From positions 1 through 41,278 of the forward strand of contig JASEGS010000014.1 in the NCBI GenBank assembly GCA_030017995.1: a stretch of DNA of 41,278 nucleotides, read 5' to 3'. Of this stretch, positions 15,487 through 41,278 are shown one piece after another. The notes under the pieces are model-generated. The model did no database searches. It was given only the letters and a program-made list of their open reading frames with translations, and had not been told where the DNA came from. Numbering within the stretch: position 1 is the first letter of the stretch; each line of letters begins with the position of its first letter. Source of the stretch: Thermodesulfovibrionales bacterium. GTDB lineage: Bacteria; Nitrospirota; Thermodesulfovibrionia; Thermodesulfovibrionales; Dissulfurispiraceae. A program made the translations under genes and the position numbers.

Positions 15487-15487
15487 A

Positions 15488-16897
15488 TCACTTTGTCGAA
15501 TAGATTTCTAAATACATCCTGGCAGAATTGCTCCATGAAAAATCTTTATTCATGGCGTTTTTTATTAATGCCTGCCAAGTTTCCATGTCTGAATAAGCAG
15601 TTAGCGCCCTTTTTATGGCGCTTAAAAGGGATTCTGCAGAATATTCATCAAAAAGAAAGCCAGTTTCTGAATCCTCTATAGTATCGGCTAATCCTCCTGT
15701 CTTGCTCGCTACAGGTATTGTGCCGTAACGCATTGATATCATTTGTCCCAGTCCACAGGGCTCGTATCTTGAAGGCATCAGGAATATATCAGAGCCTGCA
15801 TATGCGAGATGCGCAAAGTCCTCATTAAACCCTGAATAGAAAAAGAAATTGCCGTCATATAAACTCATCAGGGAATTAAGCTGCGAATTGTACTTTTCCT
15901 CCCCTTTTCCAATTATAACAACATTTGTTTTGTATTCAATCATTTTTGGTATTGCCCCTATCAGCAGGTCCAATCCCTTCTGGTATGCGAGCCTTCCGAT
16001 AAAGCAAAGCAAAGGGGTATTTGTATTGCCATTCAGTGAACATCTTGTGCTGAACTCTTTTTTGCAAGCTGTCTTTCCTGAAAGATCGGATTTATTGTAG
16101 GTTTTTGGAAGCAATCTATCCTTTGAAGGATTCCATTCATCATAGTCTATCCCATTTAGTATGCCGAAAATCGAGTTAGCCTTTTCCCTTAGAAGACCGT
16201 CCAGTCCATAACCTGCTTCTGGTGTCAGTATTTCGTTTGCGTATGTTCTGCTTACTGTTGTTATGATATCCGCGCTCATTATCCCTGCCTTCAGGAAGTT
16301 GACCTTGCCATAAAATTCCATGCTCTCAGGACTAAAATATTTCAATCCTAATCCTGTTATTTCCATTGTTTGAGATGGAAATAGTCCCTGATATCCCATG
16401 TTGTGTATTGTAAAGACAGATGTTGCATTTCTGAACAAGGGGATATCTTTATACAAAGTTTTTAAATACAAGGGAATAAGCCCTGTTTGCCAGTCATTGC
16501 AGTGAATGACATCCAGACGCAGAGAGAGGATTTTACAAATCTCCATAACGCTTTTACAAAAAAATATAAACCTCATATCATTGTCAGGGTAATCGCCGAG
16601 AGATGTGCCGTATAAATCATCTCTGTAAAAGAATTCATCATTGCTGATAAAAAAGGCATGGTCTGTTTTGAATGCCTTGCACTTTTTAACCGTTTCGCCG
16701 AGGGGAATATTTATTTCAATTCCTGTATCTTGAAGATTCTCCCCGAACTGCTCTTTTGTTCTTTTATAAAGCGGCACGAATAGATATGCATCAAGTCCCA
16801 TTTTTTTATATTCCTTGAAAAGAGTGCCGGTTGCGTCAGCAAGCCCTCCTGTCTTTGAGAATGGAACCGCCTCTGGCGTCACTATGGCAATCTTCAT
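15488..16897 (-). CDS. glgA: Glycogen synthase
   Basis: GlgA transfers glucose from ADP-glucose (or UDP-glucose) to growing alpha-1,4-glucan. It is a GT5 family glycosyltransferase with the N-terminal KTGGLADATGTL motif near residue 15 (sugar-nucleotide binding), the NDWQTGLIPLYLK block, and the C-terminal GRLAYQKGLDLL and SRYEPCGLGQMISMRYG blocks with the catalytic Glu region. The length of 469 aa is normal. The ATG at 16897 overlaps the galT stop (ATGA). An upstream in-frame start at 16969 lies inside galT and is not needed. Its neighbours suggest sugar-nucleotide and glycogen metabolism under, or near, a two-component system. Confidence 0.95.
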   Translation of the reverse strand: MKIAIVTPEAVPFSKTGGLADATGTLFKEYKKMGLDAYLFVPLYKRTKEQFGENLQDTGIEINIPLGETVKKCKAFKTDHAFFISNDEFFYRDDLYGTSLGDYPDNDMRFIFFCKSVMEICKILSLRLDVIHCNDWQTGLIPLYLKTLYKDIPLFRNATSVFTIHNMGYQGLFPSQTMEITGLGLKYFSPESMEFYGKVNFLKAGIMSADIITTVSRTYANEILTPEAGYGLDGLLREKANSIFGILNGIDYDEWNPSKDRLLPKTYNKSDLSGKTACKKEFSTRCSLNGNTNTPLLCFIGRLAYQKGLDLLIGAIPKMIEYKTNVVIIGKGEEKYNSQLNSLMSLYDGNFFFYSGFNEDFAHLAYAGSDIFLMPSRYEPCGLGQMISMRYGTIPVASKTGGLADTIEDSETGFLFDEYSAESLLSAIKRALTAYSDMETWQALIKNAMNKDFSWSNSARMYLEIYSTK

Positions 16898-29227: not shown

Positions 29228-29518
29228 TTATTCCTCCTGAATTCTATCAACCACTTTATCTTCCTCTGCCATCAAATCCGCAAGGTCATTGTGATTCAGC
29301 CTTTTAATGCCCTTTTCCAGTTCGTCATCCTTCAAACCTCTGATCCTTAAATCTTCCTCAAGTGCATAGACCGTGCCGCAGAAACCACCGAGTTTACCCT
29401 TTCTCGCAAAATAAACGCCGTTTTCAAGAAGGACAATATCTGCTGCCATATCCTTCGCCAGTTTTACAGCCCTTTCCCCCTCATCTGTATCAGGAGCGCT
29501 CTTAATCAGAACTATCAT
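29228..29518 (-). CDS. DsrH/TusB-like sulfur-relay protein
   Basis: This is a 96-aa soluble protein that looks like the DsrE/DsrH/TusB fold. IVLIKSAPDTDEG opens the first strand, ADIVLLENGVYFARKG follows and matches the LLQDGVY-type DsrH block. A single Cys at residue 47 (GGFCGT) could carry persulfide or selenium. TusB uses a loop contact rather than this Cys, so the fit is partial. It lies ten bases after the TauE/SafE gene and downstream of selD. Handling reduced sulfur or selenium is therefore a reasonable guess, unproven. DsrE/YchN proteins are alternatives. Confidence 0.6.
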   Translation of the reverse strand: MIVLIKSAPDTDEGERAVKLAKDMAADIVLLENGVYFARKGKLGGFCGTVYALEEDLRIRGLKDDELEKGIKRLNHNDLADLMAEEDKVVDRIQEE

Positions 29519-29528
29519 CCAAGCCTCT

Positions 29529-30308
29529 TCAGAAGATATCCATCCATACCTTAACAGCCGTTGCGAATATTATTAATGCAAGGAGCCATCTGAGGAATGG
29601 TGTCCCTGTCCTTCTGGACACTGCCCCGCCCAGCCTTGCGGAAATCGCTGCTCCGATTACGAGCGGCAGGGCCATATCAAACTGCACCTGGCCTGTGGCA
29701 ATCTTTCCTGCAAGCCCTGCTGCGGACGAAAAGAGACCAATTGCGAGTGTGCTGCCGAGCGCCACCCTCATGGGTATCTTCAGGATATACAGGAGGGCCG
29801 GTATTATTATAAAGGCACCGCCCTGACCCACAAGGCCTATCAGGAAGCCGAGAAAGATACCGATTACAATTGCCGCTGTTCTGTCAAATTCAACCCTTTC
29901 CTCTGTAAGGTCGTCCTCAGAATAGCTGCGGGGTATCAGCATCATCACTGCTGCGGCCAGCGCCAGCATTCCGAAAACAAAGAGGAGATATTTGTCAGGT
30001 ACGCCCTTTGATACCAAAGCCCCTGCCAGGGACGACAAAAATAGGGAAAGACCGAGGGTGAGAACAAGGGATTTATTTACAAGCCTCTGCTGCCTGTAAA
30101 AAATAGCTGCTGAAAGGGATGCAAAAAAACCCTGCACCATTGTCAGACCAGTGATGTCTTTTACATCAATGCCATCAAAACCGAGCGCTGGCGGCAGGTA
30201 TAACAAGAGCGGGAACATGATGATTCCCCCTCCGATGCCCAGCAGTCCGGAAAGGAAACCCACTGATACGCCTATGAAAAAGAGAACAATATAAAGGGGT
30301 GACAACAT
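29529..30308 (-). CDS. TauE/SafE-family membrane transporter
   Basis: This is a 259-aa inner-membrane protein with about eight hydrophobic helices, of the TauE/SafE (formerly DUF81) family. The N-terminal GFLSGLLGIGGGIIMFPLLLYL and the mid-protein GFLIGLVGQGGAFIIIPALLYIL are the two inverted repeats of the family, with their GIGG and GQGG turns. Known members move sulfite, sulfoacetate or other anions. No substrate can be read here. The ATG lies directly against the selD stop, so it is translated from the selD transcript. Together with the DsrH-like protein it may serve sulfur or selenium traffic. Confidence 0.85.
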   Translation of the reverse strand: MLSPLYIVLFFIGVSVGFLSGLLGIGGGIIMFPLLLYLPPALGFDGIDVKDITGLTMVQGFFASLSAAIFYRQQRLVNKSLVLTLGLSLFLSSLAGALVSKGVPDKYLLFVFGMLALAAAVMMLIPRSYSEDDLTEERVEFDRTAAIVIGIFLGFLIGLVGQGGAFIIIPALLYILKIPMRVALGSTLAIGLFSSAAGLAGKIATGQVQFDMALPLVIGAAISARLGGAVSRRTGTPFLRWLLALIIFATAVKVWMDIF

Positions 30309-31352
30309 TTATCCTGTTACAAATATCCTCTTATCTCCGTCTTCCCATTTAATCACATCGCCGATATAGGCAGCCGGGATGTCCTCCTTCTGCAGCGCTG
30401 CAACAAGTCTATCCCTTTTTTCTTCCTGAACAAAGATGAGAAGCCCGCCTGATGTTTGGGCATCATTCATCAACACCCTGTGGGTTTCAGGGACGTCACT
30501 GTCCCACTCTACATTCTGGGCAAAGCTTTTCACATTAGCCCATGTGCCGCCAGGGATTATACCCATGCTTGCAAGTCTCAATGAATCTTCGAAGAAGGGC
30601 ACACGGCCTGAATAGAGCCTTGCGCTGCATCTGCTCGCAGTAAGAACCTCGTTAAGATGCCCGATGAGGCCAAAGCCGGTTATGTCAGTGGCAGTGCTTA
30701 TGCCTATCTCAAGCATTATCTCGCTTGCCCTTTTGTTAAGAGCGGCCATAGATGCCATGAACTCTTCTATCACAGCATCACTGCATTTTCCGGCCTTTAC
30801 CCCTGTGGAGATAATGCCTGTACCGATCTTTTTGGTAAGTACAAGTGAGTCTCCTATTCTGGCCTTTGTATTGTCGAGGATTTTATCTGGATGGATTAAG
30901 CCCATCACTGTATAACCGAATTTCGGTTCTTTGTCCCTTATGGTATGTCCCCCTATTATAGCTACTCCTGCCTCTGCCATTTTGTCAATGCCGCCTTGCA
31001 TGGTCTTTTTAAGATAGGGGAAGAATTCAGGCTGCGGCGGAAACATGGCAATGTTCAATGCAGCAACAGCCCTGCCGCCCATTGCCCATACATCTGAAAG
31101 TGCATTTGCTGCTGCTATAGCCCCGAACCAATAGGGGTCGTCAACAATAGGCGTAAAAAAGTCAGTAGTGAGGACAACAGCAGTCTCATCTGTAATCTTG
31201 TAGACACCGGCATCATCTGCATTGGCAGTGCCCACAAGCACATTGGGGTCAGTAATTTCTGGCAGCTGCCCCAGCACCTGGAACAGGTCCGAAGGACTGA
31301 ATTTTGAAGCTCAACCTGCGCAGCTTGAAAGCTCTGTGAGCCTTATATTCAT
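30309..31352 (-). CDS. selD: Selenophosphate synthetase with in-frame Sec codon (TGA)
   Basis: SelD makes selenophosphate from selenide and ATP, the selenium donor for Sec and selenouridine. The conventional frame begins with GTG at 31277 and omits the catalytic end. Read upstream through the TGA at 31311-31313, the N-terminus becomes MNIRLTELSSCAG-U-ASK..., lining up with E. coli IRLTQYSHGAGCGCK: U14 matches the catalytic Cys17 and Lys17 matches Lys20. The ATG at 31352 lies five bases after GGAGG; the ATG at 31355 is too close. The corrected protein has 347 residues, against about 347 for E. coli. NADDAGV, TTDFFTPIVDDPYWFG and DPQTSGG-like NDAQTSGGLL are intact. It is first in the selD-TauE-DsrH unit. 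Confidence 0.92.
31276..31288 (-). promoter_or_regulatory. Candidate bacterial SECIS hairpin in selD
   Basis: On the minus strand ACCT (31288-31285) and AGGT (31279-31276) pair around a five-base loop GTTCC. The fold can also be written as ACCTG-TTC-CAGGT, five pairs. The loop begins 26 bases after the TGA, within the usual 16-37 range, and a G is in its first position, as bacterial SECIS elements require. A neighbouring GTCC-TTC-GGAC hairpin competes with it. The stem is short, so this is only a candidate. Confidence 0.45.
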
Positions 31353-31389
31353 CATAGCCTCCCGCATAATTTTTAGTCTGAATTAGTGA

Positions 31390-31447: not shown

Positions 31448-31488
31448 AAAAATAAAGGGATAGCCGATTGTTTCACCAGCCATCCCTT
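31448..31488 (-). terminator. Rho-independent terminator of the Mo oxidoreductase operon
   Basis: On the minus strand AAGGGATGGC (31488-31479) pairs with GCTATCCCTT (31464-31455), with one mismatch, around a 14-base loop. It is followed directly by TATTTTTG. The stem starts 20 bases after the stop of the TtrA-like gene and is well placed to end the long operon before selD. Confidence 0.8.
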
Positions 31489-31508: not shown

Positions 31509-34500
31509 CTATATCTTTACAACCTTCACCCTCGTGCTGCTGAAGTCTGGAATGCCTCCTACAACATCAACCATAGGCGTATTCGCAAAGTCTTCATCAA
31601 GCCGTGTAACATAATTGGCCTGTATGCCTGCTCCGTGCTTAGGGTTGGGAATAAGGCCTTTCTTGTCAGCGACCTTCTTTCCGCCGAGGAAGACTGTTTC
31701 AGCATTCTTCACAGGCACGCGGCCAGCGCCCATCTGCGTATGGCCATAATGGTTCGATACGCCTACACATCCCGGCCTTATGAGTTTTGTGACCTTTACT
31801 TTGCCGACAACACCTTTCGGATTGCTCCTTGAGACGAGCTTTACCTTGTCCATATTTTTGAGTCCGAGCCTCTTTGCATCAGCCTCATTCATCTCCACAT
31901 AGTTCGTTGGAAACACCTCCATTGACCACTTGTGAAGCACTGTCCTTGCCTGCGCATGAAGGTTCATCTTGTATGTTATTACGGTGAATGGATAGTCTTT
32001 ATCCGCATCTTCAATTATTCTTCCCTTAGGCGTCATCGGAAGCGTATGTTTCAACGTGCCTGAGAAGTACTCGCCTGTGATGGAGTTCTTTGTGGTTGCG
32101 AGTTCCTCGTTATAAAGAACAACCCTCTTGAGCCCAAATTTGTGCTTTTCACCATCAAATACATCTTCGTATCTTTTGTCAAATACGCCTCCCCTCGCAA
32201 GCGTATAACTGACCTGTTTCCATTCGCTTTCCGGAAGCATATCCTTGTGTTTTGCAACAGGGTAGTTCTTTTCGACAAAATCCATCTCCTCCTGAGATGC
32301 TTGAGAAACCTTTGCGCCTGTTGCAACATTTGCGATAGCCCTTAGGTAATAGTCTTCAGCTTTGTTGAGCGGATACATCTTCCCATCTTTACCTTTGATG
32401 GCATTGTCTCCGAAGCCGGGCAGCCCTGCCGCCTTTGCGATATCAATTAAGAATGTCTCTTCAGAGAATGGTCTGCCATCAGATGTTGTGCCTGTAAGAG
32501 GCTCAATTGTCGGGGTGCGCACTCCTGTAAACTTGAGGGCAGGCGCATGGGGTGTGAGGAATCCGTAGTGCCCCTCTGAATAAGTAACATCAGGCACTAT
32601 ATAGTCAGCAAAGATGTTTGACTCATTTATCGCGATATCAATAGAAACATGGAGCGGCACTTTATCGCTATTTTTCAATGTCTCCATGTAGCGATAGCCC
32701 CCGGGTATTGAATAAACAGGGTTAAAGAAGTAGGAGATGAATATCTTGCAGGGATACGGATATTGCTGGTCAATGCCGCTCATTGCCTCAACACAAAGAC
32801 CGCCCAGTGAAAAAGGGAACCACGGTCTCTTTGACGGATAGCCGTTCTTTTTGTATTCTGTTGTCTTTTCATAGGCAAACTTCTCTCTTGAGATGATCGG
32901 GCCCTGCAGCTTTCTCTTGCCTGCGAAATCCTTGAGGTCATACATGCCGGTGTTCCATGCGGCTGCGCCGCCTCCGCCTTTCATGTATCCTCCCTTCCGG
33001 TCAACATTTCCAACCATCGCATTGAGAACTGCCACAGGATAGGATGCATAGGTTCCGCTTATATAATTTCCTGCGCCGTGATACTGTGTAACAGCAGCCC
33101 TTGTGCCGTGAGAGGTAAATTCGCGGGCAACTTCTTCGAGCTTGGATTTTTCAACATCTGCAATCTTTGCGTACTCATCAATGGAACGCTCCATTACGCC
33201 TTCTTTCATAAGGCGGAAGGAGGTCTTTACCTTTATCTCTTTGCCTGCTGTGTCTTTTACAGCCGCCTCTGCGTCAAGAACCGCATTTTCAACCTTATCA
33301 AACGCAACAGGCATGTTGTCTTTTGAGAGAACGACAAAGGCATTTCCTGCATCACCTGTCAAAGCGGGGTCAATATCGCTCATTCTCAGGAATTTCCTGT
33401 TGTTTTTGTGCTTGTCATCCACAATCACTAAGTGGGCTGCATTGGAGTAGCAGGCGTGTCCCCTCTTGTCAGCAGCCTTTGGATTCGGCGCAGTGAGGAA
33501 TTCCTTATTGTACCGGTCGTTCTCTATGATCCATCTTATCATGCCCATTGCAAATGCGCCGTCCTGTCCGGGCTTTATGGGTATCCAGTTTTCAGCATGT
33601 GTAGAGGCATGGGTTGCTCGAGGGTCAACAATTGTAAATTTTACCTTGCCTTCAGAGTTCCTCTTTGCTACCATCGCGCCATAGGTGTTTACTCCGGGCT
33701 GTAGAGCCTCATAGATATTGGAGCCAAATACGAGGATATATTCAGCACTCATCGGGTCTGCCTTTATCTCAACATCCTTTCTCTCTGTAAATGCCATGTT
33801 TCCCTGCCTGAAGCCGATGCCGCAGATATCAGTATGCCCGATGCGGTTTGCAGAGCCGAGCGCCTCTTTCACAAACCTGTCAGAGAACTCCTTCCTCGCA
33901 TTCTGATCCCTGCCTCCTATAAAGACAAGCTGATTCCTTACAGAACCAAGCTCAGGCGCGTCGGGATTTATCAGGTCGTCTTTGTTTAAGTCCTTTATGC
34001 CTGGGACGACTCTGTCCTCGCCTAAATGTGCAAAGACCTTGCCTCCACTGGCAACCTCATTTATCAATTGCTCCCACTCAATAGGCTCAAACTTGCCTGA
34101 GCCCCTCTCGCCTGCTCTCTTCAAAGGCTTTATAATCCTGTAAGGATTATGCGCATAGTTCGGCGCATCCTGTGATTTTCCGCAGACAGGGGAGGATATG
34201 TTCAAAGTATCCTTGACAGGCGTATTGTACGGAATTGGCTCAAATCTTGTGTTATAAGGGTGGTACGGATTGCCTGAATGCTTTACGAGCTTGCCGTTAT
34301 CAACAACTGCCCTTACACCACATCTGGCATTACACCCGAGGCAGACGGAGTGAACTACCTTCACATCCTTGTCAAGCTGGGTTGCGGCTGATTTCTGAAC
34401 CTTGCGCGGGCTCAGCCAATTCCCATATTTCTTGGCTGCTGCCCGTGCCTTTTCAACTCCGAAGGCAAGCGCTCCTGCTGCTGCAGCAGCAAGTCTTATA

Positions 34501-34559
34501 AATGAGCGACGGGTTACGGAAACGCCGGATTCTATAATCTTGATAATACCTTCTTTCAT
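31509..34559 (-). CDS. TtrA-like molybdopterin oxidoreductase, catalytic subunit
   Basis: This is a 1016-aa bis-MGD molybdenum enzyme of the DMSO reductase superfamily. It has a Tat signal (TRRSFIRL, residues 16-23, hydrophobic to about 40). Its N-terminal [4Fe-4S] ligands are Cys73, 76, 80 and 126, and the likely Mo ligand is Cys246 in TDICGIG. Segments such as GSGKFEPIEWEQLINEV and NWIPIKPGQDGAFAMGMIRWIIENDRY recall tetrathionate reductase TtrA and the related arsenate/selenate group, so the substrate is most likely an inorganic oxyanion or sulfur species. It overlaps the Fe-S subunit gene by ATGA. No NrfD-type anchor is visible beside it. Confidence 0.85.
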   Translation of the reverse strand: MKEGIIKIIESGVSVTRRSFIRLAAAAAGALAFGVEKARAAAKKYGNWLSPRKVQKSAATQLDKDVKVVHSVCLGCNARCGVRAVVDNGKLVKHSGNPYHPYNTRFEPIPYNTPVKDTLNISSPVCGKSQDAPNYAHNPYRIIKPLKRAGERGSGKFEPIEWEQLINEVASGGKVFAHLGEDRVVPGIKDLNKDDLINPDAPELGSVRNQLVFIGGRDQNARKEFSDRFVKEALGSANRIGHTDICGIGFRQGNMAFTERKDVEIKADPMSAEYILVFGSNIYEALQPGVNTYGAMVAKRNSEGKVKFTIVDPRATHASTHAENWIPIKPGQDGAFAMGMIRWIIENDRYNKEFLTAPNPKAADKRGHACYSNAAHLVIVDDKHKNNRKFLRMSDIDPALTGDAGNAFVVLSKDNMPVAFDKVENAVLDAEAAVKDTAGKEIKVKTSFRLMKEGVMERSIDEYAKIADVEKSKLEEVAREFTSHGTRAAVTQYHGAGNYISGTYASYPVAVLNAMVGNVDRKGGYMKGGGGAAAWNTGMYDLKDFAGKRKLQGPIISREKFAYEKTTEYKKNGYPSKRPWFPFSLGGLCVEAMSGIDQQYPYPCKIFISYFFNPVYSIPGGYRYMETLKNSDKVPLHVSIDIAINESNIFADYIVPDVTYSEGHYGFLTPHAPALKFTGVRTPTIEPLTGTTSDGRPFSEETFLIDIAKAAGLPGFGDNAIKGKDGKMYPLNKAEDYYLRAIANVATGAKVSQASQEEMDFVEKNYPVAKHKDMLPESEWKQVSYTLARGGVFDKRYEDVFDGEKHKFGLKRVVLYNEELATTKNSITGEYFSGTLKHTLPMTPKGRIIEDADKDYPFTVITYKMNLHAQARTVLHKWSMEVFPTNYVEMNEADAKRLGLKNMDKVKLVSRSNPKGVVGKVKVTKLIRPGCVGVSNHYGHTQMGAGRVPVKNAETVFLGGKKVADKKGLIPNPKHGAGIQANYVTRLDEDFANTPMVDVVGGIPDFSSTRVKVVKI

Positions 34560-35248
34560 AGCGAACCTCCCTTTGCGCTGCGGCGATTCAGCACATATCT
34601 GATATTCGGATTCGTCTTCTTATCTGGCTTGCGTGTCTTCAAGTCAGTTCTTTTAAGATATTCTGCAAATTCACCTTCAGGCGCATTAAGGTCTCCAAAG
34701 AGCCTCGCGCTTGCCTCGCATGCCTCAACACAAGCAGGCATCAAGCCCTGCTCAAGCCTGTTTATGCAGAAGTCGCATTTATCAACCTTGCCTCCTGCCT
34801 GCCCTTTATATCTCGTATCGAGAAAACGAGCCTCATACGGACATGCAGGCACGCACGCGCCTATGCCCTGACACTTGTCCCAGTCTGTTACAACAATCCC
34901 ATTAGGCAGTTTAAATGTCGCTTTCACAGGACATGCAGGCACGCAAGGCGGATTTTCGCACTGATTGCACTGTACCGGCGTGAATACTATCCTTGATTCG
35001 GGATAGTTGCCGTCTTCCATCGTAAGCACCTTTGTGTTGAACTTGTCCTGCAATGTCTTGTTCTGTGCCTTACATGCGATAACGCATGACTGACATCCTG
35101 TGCAGCGGTTGAGGTCAATTATCATGCCGTATTTCTTTGTTTCGGCTGCTGCCTCGGCATTTGGCGTCTTTGACAATGCGGCTATACTTACTACTGTGCC
35201 GGCCATTGTCAGAAGACCGTTTTTCAAAAAAAGCCTTCGTTCATTCAT
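34556..35248 (-). CDS. Fe-S electron-transfer subunit (TtrB/PsrB-like)
   Basis: This is a 230-aa ferredoxin-like beta subunit that would pass electrons to the TtrA-like protein. The ATG at 35248 is chosen because AAGGAGG lies four bases upstream; an ATG at 35263 would swallow it. It opens with a Tat-like ERRLFLKN. Cys sets are 49-52-55-59, 94-97-102-106, 126-132-136 and 158-161-173-177. The third set has Ile129 where Cys is expected (CQGIGACVPACP), so it may carry a [3Fe-4S] cluster as in NarH/DmsB-type proteins. Both subunits would fold in the cytoplasm and be exported. Confidence 0.85.
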   Translation of the reverse strand: MNERRLFLKNGLLTMAGTVVSIAALSKTPNAEAAAETKKYGMIIDLNRCTGCQSCVIACKAQNKTLQDKFNTKVLTMEDGNYPESRIVFTPVQCNQCENPPCVPACPVKATFKLPNGIVVTDWDKCQGIGACVPACPYEARFLDTRYKGQAGGKVDKCDFCINRLEQGLMPACVEACEASARLFGDLNAPEGEFAEYLKRTDLKTRKPDKKTNPNIRYVLNRRSAKGGSL

Positions 35249-35291
35249 ACATCCTCCTTTCATTGGCTCCCCACGGGAACCCTATAACCTA

Positions 35292-35687
35292 TCAGTATTT
35301 CTTTTTCCCCTTTTCCTTCACAAAGACCGCTACCTTCTTTACCACAGGCTTACTTGATTCTCCAGAGATAATAAGCCTTACAATATAGGAACCCGGGTCC
35401 TCAAATGTGTGTGTGCAGTTCTGTCCGGCGCATGTGGAGCTGTCCCCAAAATCCCATAGAAAACTCTGTGCCTTTCCTTTTAATATCTTTGCAGTGAAAT
35501 TTACATCCAGCGGATTAATGCCAATCGGCGGATCTATCTTTACAGACACTTCAAGCTCGTTAGTGCGGATGACAGTAACTGCAGGATCGACATCAAAAAC
35601 CGGATCGTCGGTCAATGCGCAAAGAGCATGCGCATGGGTAGAAATCACCAATAGAGAAAATACGATAAAAAAATTAAATAGCCTCAC
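35292..35687 (-). CDS. Small secreted PKD-domain protein (second of two)
   Basis: This is a 131-aa exported protein: signal peptide to about residue 22 (ISTHAHA), then a single PKD/Ig-like domain with the marker SFLWDFGDSS and TFEDPGSYIVRLII. Two Cys in STCAGQNC may form a disulfide. The start is GTG with AAGGAAGG six bases upstream. It is related in layout and in its FLWD-GD core to the next PKD protein, suggesting duplication. PKD domains usually mediate binding to proteins or polysaccharides; the role here, inside a respiratory operon, is not known. The C-terminal KEKGKKKY is basic. Confidence 0.7.
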   Translation of the reverse strand: MRLFNFFIVFSLLVISTHAHALCALTDDPVFDVDPAVTVIRTNELEVSVKIDPPIGINPLDVNFTAKILKGKAQSFLWDFGDSSTCAGQNCTHTFEDPGSYIVRLIISGESSKPVVKKVAVFVKEKGKKKY

Positions 35688-35709
35688 CGAATGCCTTCCT
35701 TGCCGGTCT

Positions 35710-35727
35710 TCGCATCGCCTGATGCGA
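35710..35727. repeat. Intercistronic hairpin TCGCATC-GCCT-GATGCGA
   Basis: A perfect seven-pair stem with a four-base loop lies between the two PKD genes. There is no T-run after it on the minus strand, so it is more likely an mRNA-stability or processing element than a terminator. Confidence 0.6.
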
Positions 35728-35739
35728 TTAGGCAGTTGG

Positions 35740-36099
35740 TCAACCGCCCTTTCTTCTTAGTATGTCTATTACCATCTTTTTTGTTACTGTCTTGCCAGCG
35801 GCATCTGTTACAGTAAGCGTAATATCGTATGTCCTGCCTCCTCTTTTATAAACATGCGTGAATTCCTGCTCTTTATACTTTGTCCCGTCACCCATATCCC
35901 ATAAAAAACTCTTTGCTTCAGCGCCTTTTACAACAGCTTTAAACTCTATCTCCTGAAGCCCCTCTGGAGAAGGAGGGTCATACTCTATCTCCACCTCAAA
36001 GGCCGATGCAGTGTTGACCGCAAAAGCCAGTAGGAATAGAGAAAAGACGAGCATATACGATGTGTAATGAACAGTCCTTTTCAGAATTAAACCTAACAC
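35740..36099 (-). CDS. Small secreted PKD-domain protein (first of two)
   Basis: This is a 119-aa exported protein with a long signal sequence (hydrophobic YMLVFSLFLLAFAVNTASA, cleaved near residue 35), then one PKD-like domain (SFLWDMGDGTKYKEQEFTHVYKRGGRTYDITLTVTD). The start is GTG with GGAGG seven bases before it; an ATG at 36054 would also give a signal peptide. Core sequence FLWDMGDG matches FLWDFGDS of its neighbour. It lies between the porin gene and the other PKD gene in the Mo oxidoreductase operon. Its partner or ligand is unknown. Confidence 0.7.
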   Translation of the reverse strand: MLGLILKRTVHYTSYMLVFSLFLLAFAVNTASAFEVEIEYDPPSPEGLQEIEFKAVVKGAEAKSFLWDMGDGTKYKEQEFTHVYKRGGRTYDITLTVTDAAGKTVTKKMVIDILRRKGG

Positions 36100-36172
36100 T
36101 CTTTGTCCTCCATCCCTTTATTTTCCTCTAAAAATGACAACCTCTCAAAAACTCGGACTTTTTACAAAGCCG

Positions 36173-37729
36173 TCAAAAATGCACATCAAACGATGCATAT
36201 ATGTTATCCATTGTCCTCGGTGATGGGAAAAGCAGCATTGGGTTGCCGCTCAATTCCTTAGGTTCGCCGAGCAGCAGGCCGCTTCCGCTGTAATTGAATA
36301 CATAATGCTGATAGCCGAGCCTGAATAAGACCTTGCTGAGTTTCCAGACAGGCTTTTTCGTCAGATCATAAATCCAGTATGCTTCGCCAACATGCCCCCT
36401 TGTTGCAAGCTTGCCTCCATAGATGTCATCAGCAGAAGGCGTAAAGTTTATCCAGTATTTTGAACCATAGTTGTATTCCAATCCGAACTTGCTTCTGCCA
36501 TAAGGAATCCTCAGTCCCGCATAAAAGGCATATCCGGTATGCCCCTTTTTTTCACCGCCTTCATCATAGAGGAGACCGCCGGGGGACATTGTGAGATCTA
36601 CAACCCCATCACCATCCATATCTACAGGGGCGCTCCAGCCTGAAATATCTTTTGGGTGTGTCTTTGAAAGTCCTGCGGATATAAACCAATCAACCCCGGA
36701 GGTCCTTGTCATAAAGAGTGCTACCGCATGGTCAATGTCTCCAATGTTGGCGGTTGCCCTTTCAGGCAGGTCATTGACATTAAATGCCCTGAATATCTGA
36801 AACTGTGCAAGAGTCCCTTTCCCTGCATCCTCATATATGTCAAAGTTAAATCCCGCAAAAGTAGCATCCTTAAGGGTGTTTATATTATCGTCTCTAAGCC
36901 CTGACTCAAATCCTTTCCCATAGCAGAGACGCGCCTTAAATCCAGGCAGTGATTCTATGTCAGGATTATAAATAACAACAAGCCCATCCATCGCATAATC
37001 AACGCCAAGCCCGGCAGGTGTTGCATCACGCTCAGTGCCTTGCCTGAGATGCAGAGGAGGGCCTCCTGCAGACGGCCTCCTGCCAATGGATATTATGCCC
37101 GGGAATCCCCCGGGGTCATACCAGTTAAAATACGCCCTGTCAACTCTTAAAGCGCTGTCAGCAGGCTTATATGTGCTGTTGCCGTCAAAAAGGATTGAAT
37201 TCTGGGACATAAAACCATTGGCGTCAAGAGGTGCTGATGTCTCCTGTCCCCATATCTTATACATAGCAAGCCTTGCTGTGAAATCAACATCTTCTGTTGC
37301 CTTCACCCTCATCTTTAGCCGCAGGCGGTTTGTGAGGAGGGTATCATCATGAGCAGTGAATTTGCCATACTGTCTTGGTTGAAAAGCGCCTATATCAGGA
37401 TTCCACCTAAATCCTGTGAAATCATCAAACCGCGCATGAACAGAGTCCAGCTTGAACCTGTATTCTCCCCATATCTCGAATCTTGAGAGTCCTTCACTTT
37501 TCTTTGCCGTTTTCTCAACATCCTTTATCTTCTTTTCCTGTACAGTGTCTTTCTTTTTTAAGTCCTCGACCTGTTTTTTTAGAGATTCGAGTTCTTTCTT
37601 TACATCATCCATCTTTTTCAATTCTTTTGTCAGTTCGTCAATCCTTTTTAAAATCTCAGACTCTGACGCAAATGAGGATATCGGAAAAAGAAAAGAGAGG
37701 ATTACGAAAACTGCAACAAATCTCTTCAT
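36173..37729 (-). CDS. Outer-membrane porin-like beta-barrel with coiled coil
   Basis: This is a 518-aa protein. A signal peptide (residues 1-21, ending SSFA) is followed by a Lys/Glu-rich coiled coil (about 25-75), then a long beta-strand-rich region with alternating aromatics (FEIWGEYRFKLDSV, RLRLKMRVKATEDVDFTARLAMYKIWG), ending in IYASFDVHF, the C-terminal Phe signature of barrel assembly. The layout recalls porins with a periplasmic coiled-coil stalk. A wider open frame exists upstream but the ATG at 37729 overlaps the torD stop (ATGA) and has AAGGAGG nine bases before it. Its place in the operon suggests it admits the enzyme's substrate, but this is inference. Confidence 0.8.
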   Translation of the reverse strand: MKRFVAVFVILSFLFPISSFASESEILKRIDELTKELKKMDDVKKELESLKKQVEDLKKKDTVQEKKIKDVEKTAKKSEGLSRFEIWGEYRFKLDSVHARFDDFTGFRWNPDIGAFQPRQYGKFTAHDDTLLTNRLRLKMRVKATEDVDFTARLAMYKIWGQETSAPLDANGFMSQNSILFDGNSTYKPADSALRVDRAYFNWYDPGGFPGIISIGRRPSAGGPPLHLRQGTERDATPAGLGVDYAMDGLVVIYNPDIESLPGFKARLCYGKGFESGLRDDNINTLKDATFAGFNFDIYEDAGKGTLAQFQIFRAFNVNDLPERATANIGDIDHAVALFMTRTSGVDWFISAGLSKTHPKDISGWSAPVDMDGDGVVDLTMSPGGLLYDEGGEKKGHTGYAFYAGLRIPYGRSKFGLEYNYGSKYWINFTPSADDIYGGKLATRGHVGEAYWIYDLTKKPVWKLSKVLFRLGYQHYVFNYSGSGLLLGEPKELSGNPMLLFPSPRTMDNIYASFDVHF

Positions 37730-38427
37730 GCTATATATCCTCCTTCTGTCTTCAATGTTTCTGACAGCCAGCAGATTCTCAAATAATCCGTGCTGATCAT
37801 GCCCTTTAAAATCTTTGCTGCACCTATATAAAAATCGTTGTTTGCCTTGCTGCATACATCTTCTGCAAACAGGTCTGCCCATTTGCAGAGATGGTTTTCA
37901 AGAAATTTCTTCTGATCATTAAGTAGTTCAGCAGCGCTCTTGTAATCCTCTGATTCCAGCGCCTTTGCGGTTTTATCAGCCAGAATATACATAAACTGGA
38001 GTTCAAAGCCGATATGGTCGTCAGGTTCTTTATTCAGCCTTTCAGGCAGCAGTCTGTGCTTCGCATAATATTTGCGCACATCTAAGGTTTCGTTTACGGA
38101 AAAAAGCCGGCCGCTTCCGAGGGCAACGGATTCCCATGGAGAGACAAGGGGTTTCCCTGCGCCTATAAAAAGTGAGGAATACTCTGAAGACAGTTCATCA
38201 AGGAGGTGTTCTGTGGATACCTTTTTGTTTATATAACCCTCTATAAGTTCTATACCTGCTTTGATATTTTCATCGTCATTTATGTAAGGCAGAAAAATCA
38301 GGACGTCATTGCCTTTGATGTTTTCTATAAAGTCTTTAGATGCCTCTTCAATAAAGCTCCTGAAAAGGAAACTGTATCCGAGTGTCCTTTCGTCAAGTTC
38401 TGTTATGGTCTTAAAATCCGCTTTCAA
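37726..38427 (-). CDS. torD: TorD/DmsD-family molybdoenzyme chaperone
   Basis: TorD-like chaperones bind the Tat signal of molybdoenzyme subunits and hold them until cofactor is inserted. This protein is nearly all alpha-helical and has the family motif SPWESVAL near residue 95 and EPDDHIGFELQFMYILADKTA near 133. Length is 233 aa from a TTG at 38427, which sits five bases after AAGGAGG. The ATG at 38454 lies inside a strong hairpin upstream of that ribosome site and is rejected. It is encoded between the two Fe-S/Mo modules and could serve both alpha subunits. Confidence 0.85.
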   Translation of the reverse strand: MKADFKTITELDERTLGYSFLFRSFIEEASKDFIENIKGNDVLIFLPYINDDENIKAGIELIEGYINKKVSTEHLLDELSSEYSSLFIGAGKPLVSPWESVALGSGRLFSVNETLDVRKYYAKHRLLPERLNKEPDDHIGFELQFMYILADKTAKALESEDYKSAAELLNDQKKFLENHLCKWADLFAEDVCSKANNDFYIGAAKILKGMISTDYLRICWLSETLKTEGGYIA

Positions 38428-38443
38428 GGTGTCCTCCTTTTGG

Positions 38444-38473
38444 TGCAGGGGCATGGTTTGCCATGCCCCTGCA
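38444..38473. repeat. Perfect 13-bp intercistronic palindrome
   Basis: Arms TGCAGGGGCATGG (38444-38456) and CCATGCCCCTGCA (38461-38473) pair perfectly around TTTG. The hairpin lies just before the Shine-Dalgarno of torD and nine bases after the Fe-S subunit stop. It has no T-run on either side. Confidence 0.8.
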
Positions 38474-38482
38474 TATGCTTAC

Positions 38483-39283
38483 TCATACTATCTTTGGTCT
38501 CACTATGGTATTAGGTTTTGTAATATCAGGAGGCGCTGCTCCTACCTTTGTAAGGTCCCTGGTAAATTCATCAGCATGCTGCTCATCAGGAGGTATCCCT
38601 TGTTTAACCTCAAGAAATTTTGTTGCGCCGCCGTCTGAAGAATCAGCCTCCTTGCCCTTGTATCTGCCTTTATTGTTACGCACAAGATTGTATGGTTTTG
38701 ACGGATCATCAGTTATCTGAAGCGCCCTGCCGATACATACATCCACACATGCCGGCCTTTTTACTCCATCAGCATCAGGTCTTTTGAGTCGTGTTAACAC
38801 GCAAAGGTGGCATTTCTCCATCACCTTTGATACAGGGTTCCACTGCGGTGCATCATAGGGACATGCCTGTTTGCATGCGCCTCCGCATTTTGCTTTGTCA
38901 GGATCGCAGTTTTTTGGAGTGCCGAGTTTTCCATTCTGGATTATAACTGCTCCGACTGTCTTTTCCTTGTAAATTGCACCGCTGGAGTCAAATAGGTCTT
39001 TGCCCTTCAGAGGACATGCCTTCCAACATATAGGGTCACTGCAGTGGTTGCAGGACATTGACAGGAAATATGTCCCGGGCCCATCTCCGAGTGTGCGAAC
39101 CCTGCGGTATCTCGGTCCTTTTTTCTCAAGCTCTTTAAGGTCTTTGAAATCAACCTTTATCGGCTCTATACCGCTTCCTTTACTGTGCCCGACATGAACC
39201 TGATTTTCCATCTTGCAGGCTGACTCGCAAGCATAGCAGCGGACGCATCTATTGGAATCGTATGCATACATATACTGTGTCAT
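38483..39283 (-). CDS. Fe-S electron-transfer subunit (DmsB/PhsB-like)
   Basis: This 266-aa beta subunit carries four cluster Cys sets: 13-16-19-23, 78-81-86-90, 126-133-137-141 and 158-161-179-183. The third has unusual spacing (CX6CX3CX3CP), but all four Cys are present. It has no Tat signal, so it probably travels with the partner alpha subunit upstream. A 55-residue C-terminal extension after residue 205 is Lys/Asp-rich and unlike other members. It starts 14 bases after the alpha subunit stop, with GGAGG before the ATG. Confidence 0.85.
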   Translation of the reverse strand: MTQYMYAYDSNRCVRCYACESACKMENQVHVGHSKGSGIEPIKVDFKDLKELEKKGPRYRRVRTLGDGPGTYFLSMSCNHCSDPICWKACPLKGKDLFDSSGAIYKEKTVGAVIIQNGKLGTPKNCDPDKAKCGGACKQACPYDAPQWNPVSKVMEKCHLCVLTRLKRPDADGVKRPACVDVCIGRALQITDDPSKPYNLVRNNKGRYKGKEADSSDGGATKFLEVKQGIPPDEQHADEFTRDLTKVGAAPPDITKPNTIVRPKIV

Positions 39284-39297
39284 TGTCTGTCACCTCC

Positions 39298-41278
39298 TTA
39301 TGCCTTTTTATAAACGCGGACTCTTGTGCCGTGATAGTTGGCGCCGCCGCTTATGGGTTCGGTAAGGCTCCAGATTACCTTGCCTGTGTTTATGCCGGTA
39401 TTCTGGTGTCCGTCAGGCTTGCTCCATACATATTCGCCCTTATACTTTGCATCAGGATCGTCCGGAAGCTTTTGTTCAGGCCATTTAGCTCTTGATGAAT
39501 CCAGTCTGTTTGACCTGCCGTCAACGCTATATTTACCGAAGTATTGATGCCCGAATATGCCGCAGATGCCTACAACGCCTTGTCTGATGCCCTTTGTTAC
39601 CCTTGCAGGCCCTTCAACCTTTTCAATACGGTAGCTGGTTGTGCCTGTTGTCCTCTGCCTTGCCTCAACAATAACCCTGTCGCCGTTCTTTATGCCGCGC
39701 TTGCCTGCATCTTCAGGATTGATTACCACCTCATTCTCCCAGATAATCTCTTTGAGCGTGGGCTGGTTGGAGAGTCTTGTCTTTGTAAAGGTGGCTGCCT
39801 TAAAGGTAATGAGCGACAGGTCATCCTCAGGTCTTGCAAGAGATGTATCAAGAGGCACCCATTCAGGAAGTCCGTGATATGTGGTATTCCCTCTTTCTGC
39901 TGAAAGCCCTTCCTTGCCTTCTCCCGGACTTGGAACCCCTGCCAGTGTAATTGCAAATGCCTGAACCTTGAGGTTTGCCTTTGCCTTTGTCCTGTTGCCC
40001 GGAACCCCAGTAATATCGGACTTCTCTTTGTATGTGCCTACTGCTCCGTCAAGATTTACAGGTCCCATTGAGAATTTGTTAACTCCAGCATACTTTCCGC
40101 CAAGTGCAGAGCGATCTTGTGCGCTCCATACGGACGAGTTGCCTTTAAGTTTTGTCTTCTCTCTGAGAACACTGCCCGGCGCAGAGATAATGTTTCCAGT
40201 GAGCGTCACATCAGATGCAATTGTATGGTCCGAAGTCAGCCTGTTAGCAGAGATGCTTCCGCCGATGGCCTTCTGGTCTGCCGGATATGGAATCAGTGTG
40301 CCTGCCTTGAGCATTGTCCCTGCTGAAAGCATAGAACCAGGAAGAATATCTATCCCGCCTGAGACGGTCAGAGCAGATGCCAATGTCTGGTCTGCCGCAA
40401 GATTGTTTGTGTCTGTCTTGTAAAGGACGCCGTTTGCCATGAGGTAGTCAAGCCTCTTTTCATCAGTAGTGGCGTCAACAAAGGACATGCCGTTTGCCTC
40501 AACCATAAGCTGGCCTATGTCAGGGTCAACTGCGCCAGCGCCAGCGCCTTTAAAGCCGGACACTGCATCGGCAGGTATTGCTCCCATTGCCCTTATCCTC
40601 ATCTTATGCCAGAATAGAACTCCATAAGGGTCAGCAGTGCCGTTTCCGCCTGCATCCTTTGAGCCATACCTTATTCCGTTGCTGTCTGCAGGTCCTGCCT
40701 TGCCCATATCATCCCAGCCGGTGATATTGCCTTTGTCATCAAACTTATATGTCCTTGTTCCCCATGCGTAGCCCCAGTTTATGCCTGCCGGTTTTCCATC
40801 TTTCATCACAGGTCCGGTGTAAGTGCCGTCATGATTTATCATGTTGAGAACATCATAGTAAATCTCCCGCAGGTCCTTTGCTTCAAATAGGGCTCCGTTT
40901 GCAAACTTCCCTGCCCGTGCCTGTGAAATATCAAATAGCACAGGCTGACGCAGGTTTGTCTTTTTCACATAGCAAGTCCAGAATGCCGGCACATACTCCC
41001 ACCTCTCAAGATATGTCTCAACAGGCAGGATAATATCAGCATGTGCGCTGTAGTCGCCGAGATAGGTGTCCATGGCGATGTGATACGGGATCTTTTTGGT
41101 ATCTTTCAGCACAGGTGTTACAGTGCTGTTGTCTGGGAATGAGAGTGTATAGCCTGTAAACTGCTGCATGATAACGCCATAAGGGAATACCCTGCCCAAG
41201 TTTGCGAATATGTGGTGCGTGTTTTGTTCCTCAGCCCACGGGTATGAGTGATGGAGTAATGCATGTTTGAGATAGGGA
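39298..41278 (-). CDS. Molybdopterin oxidoreductase alpha subunit, C-terminal part
   Basis: About 659 residues of a Mo-bis-MGD oxidoreductase of the DMSO reductase superfamily are visible; the frame is open to the window edge, so the N-terminus, Tat signal and Fe-S/Mo ligands lie outside. YLGDYSAHADIILPVETYLERWEYVP is the family block for the cofactor domain, and INPEDAGKRGIKNGDRVIVEARQ is the MGD-binding C-terminal domain. Between them (about 40096-40407) is a two-copy insertion of about 50 residues each, with GSMLSAGTMLKAGTLI-like hexapeptide steps. The TTG at 41199 is not a start. Substrate is not decidable from this fragment; polysulfide, arsenate and similar enzymes are relatives. Confidence 0.85.
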   Translation of the reverse strand, partial: PYLKHALLHHSYPWAEEQNTHHIFANLGRVFPYGVIMQQFTGYTLSFPDNSTVTPVLKDTKKIPYHIAMDTYLGDYSAHADIILPVETYLERWEYVPAFWTCYVKKTNLRQPVLFDISQARAGKFANGALFEAKDLREIYYDVLNMINHDGTYTGPVMKDGKPAGINWGYAWGTRTYKFDDKGNITGWDDMGKAGPADSNGIRYGSKDAGGNGTADPYGVLFWHKMRIRAMGAIPADAVSGFKGAGAGAVDPDIGQLMVEANGMSFVDATTDEKRLDYLMANGVLYKTDTNNLAADQTLASALTVSGGIDILPGSMLSAGTMLKAGTLIPYPADQKAIGGSISANRLTSDHTIASDVTLTGNIISAPGSVLREKTKLKGNSSVWSAQDRSALGGKYAGVNKFSMGPVNLDGAVGTYKEKSDITGVPGNRTKAKANLKVQAFAITLAGVPSPGEGKEGLSAERGNTTYHGLPEWVPLDTSLARPEDDLSLITFKAATFTKTRLSNQPTLKEIIWENEVVINPEDAGKRGIKNGDRVIVEARQRTTGTTSYRIEKVEGPARVTKGIRQGVVGICGIFGHQYFGKYSVDGRSNRLDSSRAKWPEQKLPDDPDAKYKGEYVWSKPDGHQNTGINTGKVIWSLTEPISGGANYHGTRVRVYKKA

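Follow-up and report, generated by a model that had tools for sequence, protein, structure and literature searches.

The window analysed here is an entire contig (G000:C5, 41,278 bases) of the 1.70-Mb, 97%-complete genome of a Thermodesulfovibrionales bacterium. On its minus strand, from position 41277 down to 31509, lies an operon of eight genes for two molybdenum oxidoreductases, a putative outer-membrane porin and two PKD proteins, which we interpret as a candidate respiratory system. In the direction of transcription the genes are alpha2 (a fragment, as the contig end cuts the operon inside this second catalytic subunit), beta2, torD, a DUF3373 porin, PKDa, PKDb, beta1 and alpha1. Just after alpha1 the operon is closed by an intrinsic hairpin terminator (31455..31488, minus strand) with a 14-bp stem and a T-tract. 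A preliminary description of this DNA had reported eight co-directional genes with short gaps or overlaps ending at a terminator, and all eight open reading frames were confirmed. The domain calls agree with the mixture of proteins it had listed: two MopB catalytic subunits, two four-[4Fe-4S]-type subunits, a Nitrate_red_del/TorD chaperone, a DUF3373 barrel and two PKD proteins. Counted upward from the beta1-alpha1 junction, where the genes overlap by 4 nucleotides, the intergenic distances are -4, 28, 52, 73, about -4, 28 and 14 nucleotides. The gaps of 52 and 73 nucleotides flank PKDa, and the start of the porin gene overlaps the torD stop in an ATGA; this start was corrected from 37882 to the ATG at 37729, which has AGGAGG upstream.

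The beta1-alpha1 enzyme

Alpha1 (31509..34559, minus strand) is a predicted TtrA-like catalytic subunit, exported by the twin-arginine translocation (Tat) pathway, with a cysteine as molybdenum ligand in the motif HTDIC, of which the His and Cys columns are invariant in a 12-sequence alignment. Beta1 (34556..35263, minus strand) is a TtrB/DsrO-like four-[4Fe-4S] subunit, as judged from its domain calls and orthologues, and carries a Tat signal of its own (RRLFLK). Orthologues of alpha1 (80-85% identity) were found in genomes G013 and G072/G288, and those of beta1 (75-84%) adjoin alpha1 in G013 and G072. Among the genomes with alpha1 relatives, those from the family and order of the window are metagenome-assembled genomes of Nitrospirota/Thermodesulfovibrionales, which assigns the host to this group.

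A scan of the genome contigs for alpha1 relatives yielded 80 loci, and a tree was built on the C-terminal region common to alpha1 and alpha2. This phylogeny, suggested in the preliminary description for both catalytic subunits, was informative for alpha1, which falls in a well-supported TtrA-like clade (support 1.0) that takes in sequences of Desulfobacterota, Thermodesulfobacteria and Desulfurobacteriaceae; for alpha2 it returned only a long orphan branch. The branch neighbouring the alpha1 clade consists of actinobacterial sequences, most of them with NrfD beside them. No recognisable gene for an NrfD-type anchor was found near the alpha1 relatives in the 57 loci of the clade, both 3-kb flanks being present in 31 of these, nor does an NrfD-type TtrC anchor stand beside beta1-alpha1 in the window. 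A same-strand neighbour with at least six transmembrane segments occurs within 3 kb in 4/57 loci, and the multi-spanning neighbours checked by Pfam are unrelated permeases (ArsP permease, TauE exporter, ABC permease). Since no NrfD was recognisable in any of these 57 loci, the absence of an anchor looks like a real, clade-wide property of beta1-alpha1, for which the earlier remark that an NrfD-type anchor is missing holds good.

Many loci of the clade have a transglutaminase-core neighbour (PF01841) instead of NrfD. This secreted protein of about 340 residues adjoins the anchorless TtrAB-like genes in L139, L140, L147, L178 and many other loci; a literature search (here and below, open-licence PMC papers) found no description of a link between transglutaminases and TtrA.

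The porin-PKD block and its recurrence

The DUF3373 protein (36173..37729, minus strand; PF11853, 352 bits) is predicted to be an outer-membrane beta-barrel with a signal peptide and an N-terminal coiled coil. Its structure model is strand-rich and of low confidence (predicted local distance difference test, pLDDT, 47), and only the strand topology was taken from it. The TCDB family 1.B.62, made up of putative pores with 18 strands, lists DUF3373 among its members (PMC4827864). PKDa (35740..36099) and PKDb (35292..35687), both on the minus strand, are secreted single-PKD proteins (PKD_4, 46 bits each) that resemble each other (42 bits). PKDb is the positional counterpart of FecR-PKD proteins in other genomes, and its phmmer matches include the FecR-PKD proteins of L089 and L098 (32 and 31 bits). 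The genome has a second gene for a DUF3373 barrel (G000:C10, about 14408-15658; L131 6406-7911), which is interrupted by an in-frame TGA and may represent a pseudogene, a sequencing error or readthrough.

A survey of gene neighbourhoods, which had been put forward as a check on the conservation of the porin-PKD pair, established that the block recurs in Nitrospirota and in two Desulfobacterota. A FecR-PKD protein of this type is present in 15 of the 396 Nitrospirota genomes sampled. It is preceded by an Alginate_exp-type porin in 15/15, often with a small PKD protein in between, and in most cases the block follows a TtrA-like module that includes cytochrome and NrfD genes. The order porin, PKD, (FecR-)PKD, molybdoenzyme module was found in four Nitrospirota families (f1, f2, f5 and f39) and the two Desulfobacterota. 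G072, from another family of the order, has porin-PKD-FecR/PKD-beta1-alpha1, as do the Desulfobacterota contigs L135 and L134, the porin being cut off in L134. Because porin-PKD-PKD-beta1-alpha1 recurs in another family and in two Desulfobacterota, the gene order of the window is more than a chance arrangement.

A canonical form of the locus could be read from G012, G022, G021 and G007, all in the family of the window. Its first half comprises a PhnD-type sensor, histidine kinase and response regulator (PhnD-HK-RR; another set of sensor genes in G022), a tetrahaem cytochrome, a beta subunit, NrfD, a catalytic subunit here called alphaN, a further beta subunit, an Hdr-like iron-sulfur protein and TorD. 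The second half comprises a dihaem protein, the Alginate_exp porin, PKD, FecR-PKD and an alpha-beta-TorD module of Psr/MOLY shape, with an alpha of 789-874 residues. The layout is the same in G346, without sensor genes on the piece read, and in G057 and G027, where it is split over two pieces of contig. In G003, G288 and G383 the match runs as far as the FecR-PKD gene, at which the contig stops. No small PKD protein was detected in G395, G367, G391, G104 and G122, and the stretches read of G395, G367, G391 and G122 contained no recognisable second molybdoenzyme module. This second module is exchangeable or absent, being alpha-beta-TorD in most genomes, a Psr-like match in G104 and beta1-alpha1 in G072, L134 and L135. 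The window shares the plan of the locus (barrel, small PKD, second PKD and molybdoenzyme module, all co-directional) and that of the upstream part (alpha module, then beta, TorD and porin), and lacks the Hdr-like iron-sulfur and dihaem genes that its counterparts have at that position. It is a divergent version of the recurrent locus, with a DUF3373 porin and no FecR domain.

In six genomes the molybdenum-ligand codon of alphaN is a TGA (LNH-U-SRCAG): G012 (L216 11525-14521), G022 (L218 12146-15178), G027 (L222), G057 (L220), G346 (L241/L242) and G395 (L243). It is TGC in G003, G007, G021, G288, G290, G367 and G383. A strong tRNA-Sec gene (>69 bits) is present in 6/6 of the TGA genomes, and G003 and G367, with a cysteine alphaN, have tRNA-Sec matches only at or below the cut-off. 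When RNA folding downstream of the TGA in G012 was compared with shuffled sequences, no significant selenocysteine insertion sequence hairpin emerged (z -1.1). The TGA-bearing alphaN is likely to be a selenocysteine TtrA-type enzyme, a combination not given in the parts consulted of a 2026 prokaryotic selenoprotein table and a 2023 MopB survey. In the window, alpha1 has cysteine as the ligand. Beyond the operon terminator lies selD (30309-31355, minus strand), encoding a selenocysteine-containing selenophosphate synthetase with an in-frame TGA (SSCAG-U-ASK); it starts at 31355, the automatic GTG start at 31277 being too late. Next to selD, likewise beyond the terminator and on the same strand, are genes for a DsrH/TusB-like protein (29228-29518) and a TauE/SafE exporter (29529-30308).

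The truncated alpha2-beta2-TorD module

Alpha2 (39298..41277, minus strand) comprises the C-terminal 659 residues of a MopB/TtrA-like catalytic subunit (Molydop_binding, 40 bits; weak matches to TtrA/PhsA profiles). By homology the fragment starts at about residue 575 of alpha1, which places about 1.7 kb of the gene outside the window, and it scores 40.3 bits to the TtrA model NF011567, with a cut-off of 1750. Its dinucleotide-binding domain is normal; otherwise its identity to relatives is about 22-28%. In the tree it forms a branch of 1.57 substitutions per site that lies outside the Psr/Moly-like groups and, weakly supported, adjoins the TtrA-like group. An insertion (40096..40407, minus strand), absent from 12 aligned relatives, consists of two repeats of about 50 residues (NxLxxDxTxAS..PGSxLxxxTxLK), solenoid-like by eye, with a repeat-to-repeat score of 92 against a shuffled mean of 23 (sd 4.4, maximum 48). 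An AlphaFold model of the fragment was unusable (mean pLDDT 37).

Neither Pfam models (Fe4S4/MopB) nor a profile of the TtrA-like N-terminus recovered the N-terminal half of alpha2 elsewhere in the assembly; the candidates were complete other subunits and a 16-bit match to a different, internal protein. No close relatives of alpha2 were found in 100 relatives, 246 genomes of the phylum and 40 genomes of alpha1-clade or related organisms, nor among plasmids or by peptide patterns in genome contigs. Matches on haloarchaeal and Azoarcus plasmids were set aside as molybdoenzymes with NrfD, belonging to another system.

Beta2 (38483..39283, minus strand; Fer4_11, DmsB-like) is a four-[4Fe-4S] subunit without signal peptide, and TorD (37726..38454, minus strand; Nitrate_red_del, 98.7 bits) is a TorD/DmsD-type maturation chaperone. 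Among all the sequences retrieved, beta2 has its best phmmer matches (64.9 and 64.5 bits) in the beta subunits that follow alphaN in canonical operons, and TorD matches best the G012 chaperone encoded upstream of the porin (66.9 bits). These matches are low-scoring, and a tree of beta subunits favours those of the alpha-beta-TorD modules (support 0.72). Position is the strongest clue, since in canonical operons alphaN precedes a beta subunit, TorD and then the porin. Together with the beta2 and TorD matches it suggests that alpha2-beta2-TorD is a probable, rather than proven, diverged counterpart of the canonical upstream module. If so, an NrfD and a cytochrome would be expected just past the contig end. 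The absence of anchor and cytochrome from the visible part cannot be extended upstream because the window is the whole contig and alpha2 only the C-terminal part. For this module the earlier remark on their absence is uninformative, because the counterparts encode cytochrome-beta-NrfD directly upstream of alpha and the missing anchor may simply reflect where the contig stops.

Only two NrfD genes were recognised in the genome. One, on contig C18, is part of a Psr/Phs-like set; the other, on C2 (4389-7850; L129), belongs to a set of tetrahaem cytochrome, Tat iron-sulfur subunit, NrfD and TorD that includes no catalytic subunit. A set like the latter stands after the FecR-PKD gene in G057 (L246). 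Contig C33 (71100-76800; L130) encodes a NapA-like subunit of 1111 residues (434 bits, far under the NapA cut-off) that adjoins a seven-CXXCH cytochrome and a one-CXXCH protein.

Proposed function and relation to known systems

The Tat signals on alpha1 and beta1, their TtrA-like family and the porin-PKD block that travels with such enzymes support the earlier suggestion of an uncharacterised periplasmic, perhaps outer-membrane-linked respiratory system. In the literature searched we found neither this layout for a named enzyme nor any description of the combination of PKD, FecR, porin and molybdopterin proteins. With about even confidence, we propose that the products of this operon make up a respiratory system in the periplasm, linked to the outer membrane, that acts on a dissolved chalcogen oxyanion or a sulfane-sulfur compound, with tetrathionate, thiosulfate or polysulfide as the likeliest candidates. 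In enzymes of this family the molybdenum bis-pyranopterin guanine dinucleotide cofactor carries out two-electron reactions with S-S or oxyanion substrates, electrons run through the four clusters of the beta subunit, and TorD maturation precedes Tat export. The barrel would pass the anion or its product across the outer membrane, and the PKD proteins in the periplasm could act as linkers between the porin and the enzyme or as substrate-binding modules. Alpha1-beta1 would take electrons from soluble carriers, and the cut alpha2-beta2, matured by TorD, would be the counterpart of the NrfD-anchored, quinol-linked canonical module, with its anchor and cytochrome beyond the contig end.

The substrate is probably a sulfur compound, which we prefer to selenium or arsenic because sulfur genes adjoin the relatives, because the host genome encodes a Phs/Psr-like enzyme, an SQR-like protein and, on contig C18, a TsuA-like one, and because TtrA-type enzymes have been linked to thiosulfate disproportionation (PMC9751629; PMC4911364). 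An ArsR-rhodanese and an SQR-like oxidoreductase stand beside the relative in L133, and a YeeE/YedE-type sulfur transporter, a rhodanese and an SQR-like oxidoreductase beside that in G012. That the same architecture serves a selenium or arsenic oxyanion, in the manner of SrdA or the alternative ArrA, appears rather unlikely to us. SrdA and the alternative arsenate reductase share the MopB family with TtrA (PMC10100899), and the PhnD-type sensor of one canonical operon scores 101 bits to a putative selenate-binding model (cut-off 250). Against these stand the sulfur genes just named and the presence in the alpha1 clade of Thermosulfurimonas dismutans, for which a tetrathionate reductase function was assigned to a TtrA-type protein (PMC4911364). 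The sole arsenic hint seen was an ArsP-type permease in the vicinity of one relative (L182).

Two further explanations concern the operon as a unit. The genes could form two or three unrelated transcription units that happen to lie side by side without functional connection, one for a molybdoenzyme, one for a porin of generic kind and the PKD proteins, and one for an enzyme like TtrAB; we judge this arrangement unlikely. It would account for beta1-alpha1 occurring without porin and PKD in G013 and L133, for the DUF3373 barrels common in the order and for the 52- and 73-nucleotide gaps around PKDa; it fits poorly with the recurrence of the same order with another porin family and in another phylum, with the ATGA overlap of torD and porin and the 4-nucleotide overlap of beta1 and alpha1, and with the one strong terminator, which follows alpha1. 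Slightly less probable still is a MOLY-type sulfur disproportionation cluster, in which alpha2-beta2-TorD would be a divergent MolyABC and the two molybdoenzymes an oxidising and reducing pair. The alpha-beta-TorD order without a visible anchor fits the MOLY definition (PMC12998232), the upstream side of alpha2 being cut by the contig end, and canonical operons have such a module after the FecR-PKD gene. The position of alpha2 outside every Psr/Moly-like group in the tree, and its place as counterpart of the upstream module, speak against it, and the full MOLY cluster has been described in Desulfobacterota only (PMC12998232).

Several observations also weigh against the proposed respiratory system. 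Alpha1 scores 591.7 bits to the TtrA equivalog NF011567 (cut-off 1750) and beta1 194.2 bits to the TtrB equivalog NF011569 (cut-off 416), both far below threshold. The G013 orthologue of alpha1 (80% identical) stands with beta1 alone. The porin is a DUF3373 and not an Alginate_exp-type protein, and PKDb is without a FecR domain; DUF3373 barrels occur in 64 of 150 genomes of the order, so the porin could be a chance recruit. Alpha2 groups with no canonical module in the tree, so that the case for its homology to alphaN is made by position and the weak beta2 and TorD matches. The TtrA/SrdA/alternative-ArrA family is moreover catalytically versatile (PMC10100899).

As a tentative extension of the proposed system, and a somewhat doubtful one, the porin with paired PKD proteins (or PKD and FecR-PKD) could serve specifically as a scaffold or portal of the outer membrane, linking two molybdoenzyme complexes with a substrate located at that membrane or outside it. 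This system would be conserved in Nitrospirota and Desulfobacterota, have interchangeable enzyme modules, differ from multihaem porin-cytochrome conduits and use a selenocysteine molybdenum ligand in some members. The findings bear on how tetrathionate, thiosulfate, polysulfide and elemental sulfur (S0) are handled at the envelope of anaerobes, and on what performs the first step of sulfur disproportionation. By linking a porin and PKD proteins with two molybdoenzymes of TtrA/Psr type, the recurrent operon provides named genes for a possible outer-membrane-linked version. A large TtrA-like clade, in which some members carry the annotation tetrathionate reductase, is moreover without the membrane anchor that is usually encoded nearby.

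Among known systems, TtrABC with TtrSR resembles the window in that alpha1 and beta1 are closest to the TtrA and TtrB models, are Tat-exported and have a cysteine molybdenum ligand, and in that complete counterpart operons carry TtrS-like PhnD-HK-RR genes. It differs in the scores, far above those of alpha1 and beta1 at the equivalog cut-offs, in the TtrC anchor, not found in the alpha1 clade, and in the absence of the added porin and PKD proteins; an assignment of alpha1-beta1 to TtrABC was rejected on the cut-offs and the NrfD-type anchor. MolyABC of the MOLY cluster (PMC12998232) is likewise an alpha-beta-TorD set without visible anchor, and such a module follows the PKD block in the counterparts. 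The set in the window is linked to a porin, PKD proteins and a second molybdoenzyme, and its identification as MOLY was rejected since the order is similar but the sequence likeness not clear, alpha2 branching outside the Psr/Moly-like groups used. The TtrA-type gene of Thermosulfurimonas dismutans (PMC4911364; contig match L178, which we infer to be TDIS_0362) encodes a protein 50% identical to alpha1 that belongs to the anchorless clade and has an adjoining beta; its locus differs in a transglutaminase-like neighbour and the lack of PKD proteins, and the paper describes such complexes as membrane-linked. TtrBCA of Desulfolithobacter dissulfuricans is a TtrA-type enzyme specifically produced in thiosulfate disproportionation, with a TtrC/NrfD anchor and no porin-PKD block reported (PMC9751629). 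By score and anchor the system of the window is no member of TtrABC, but it probably works like a Ttr/Psr-type respiratory molybdoenzyme.

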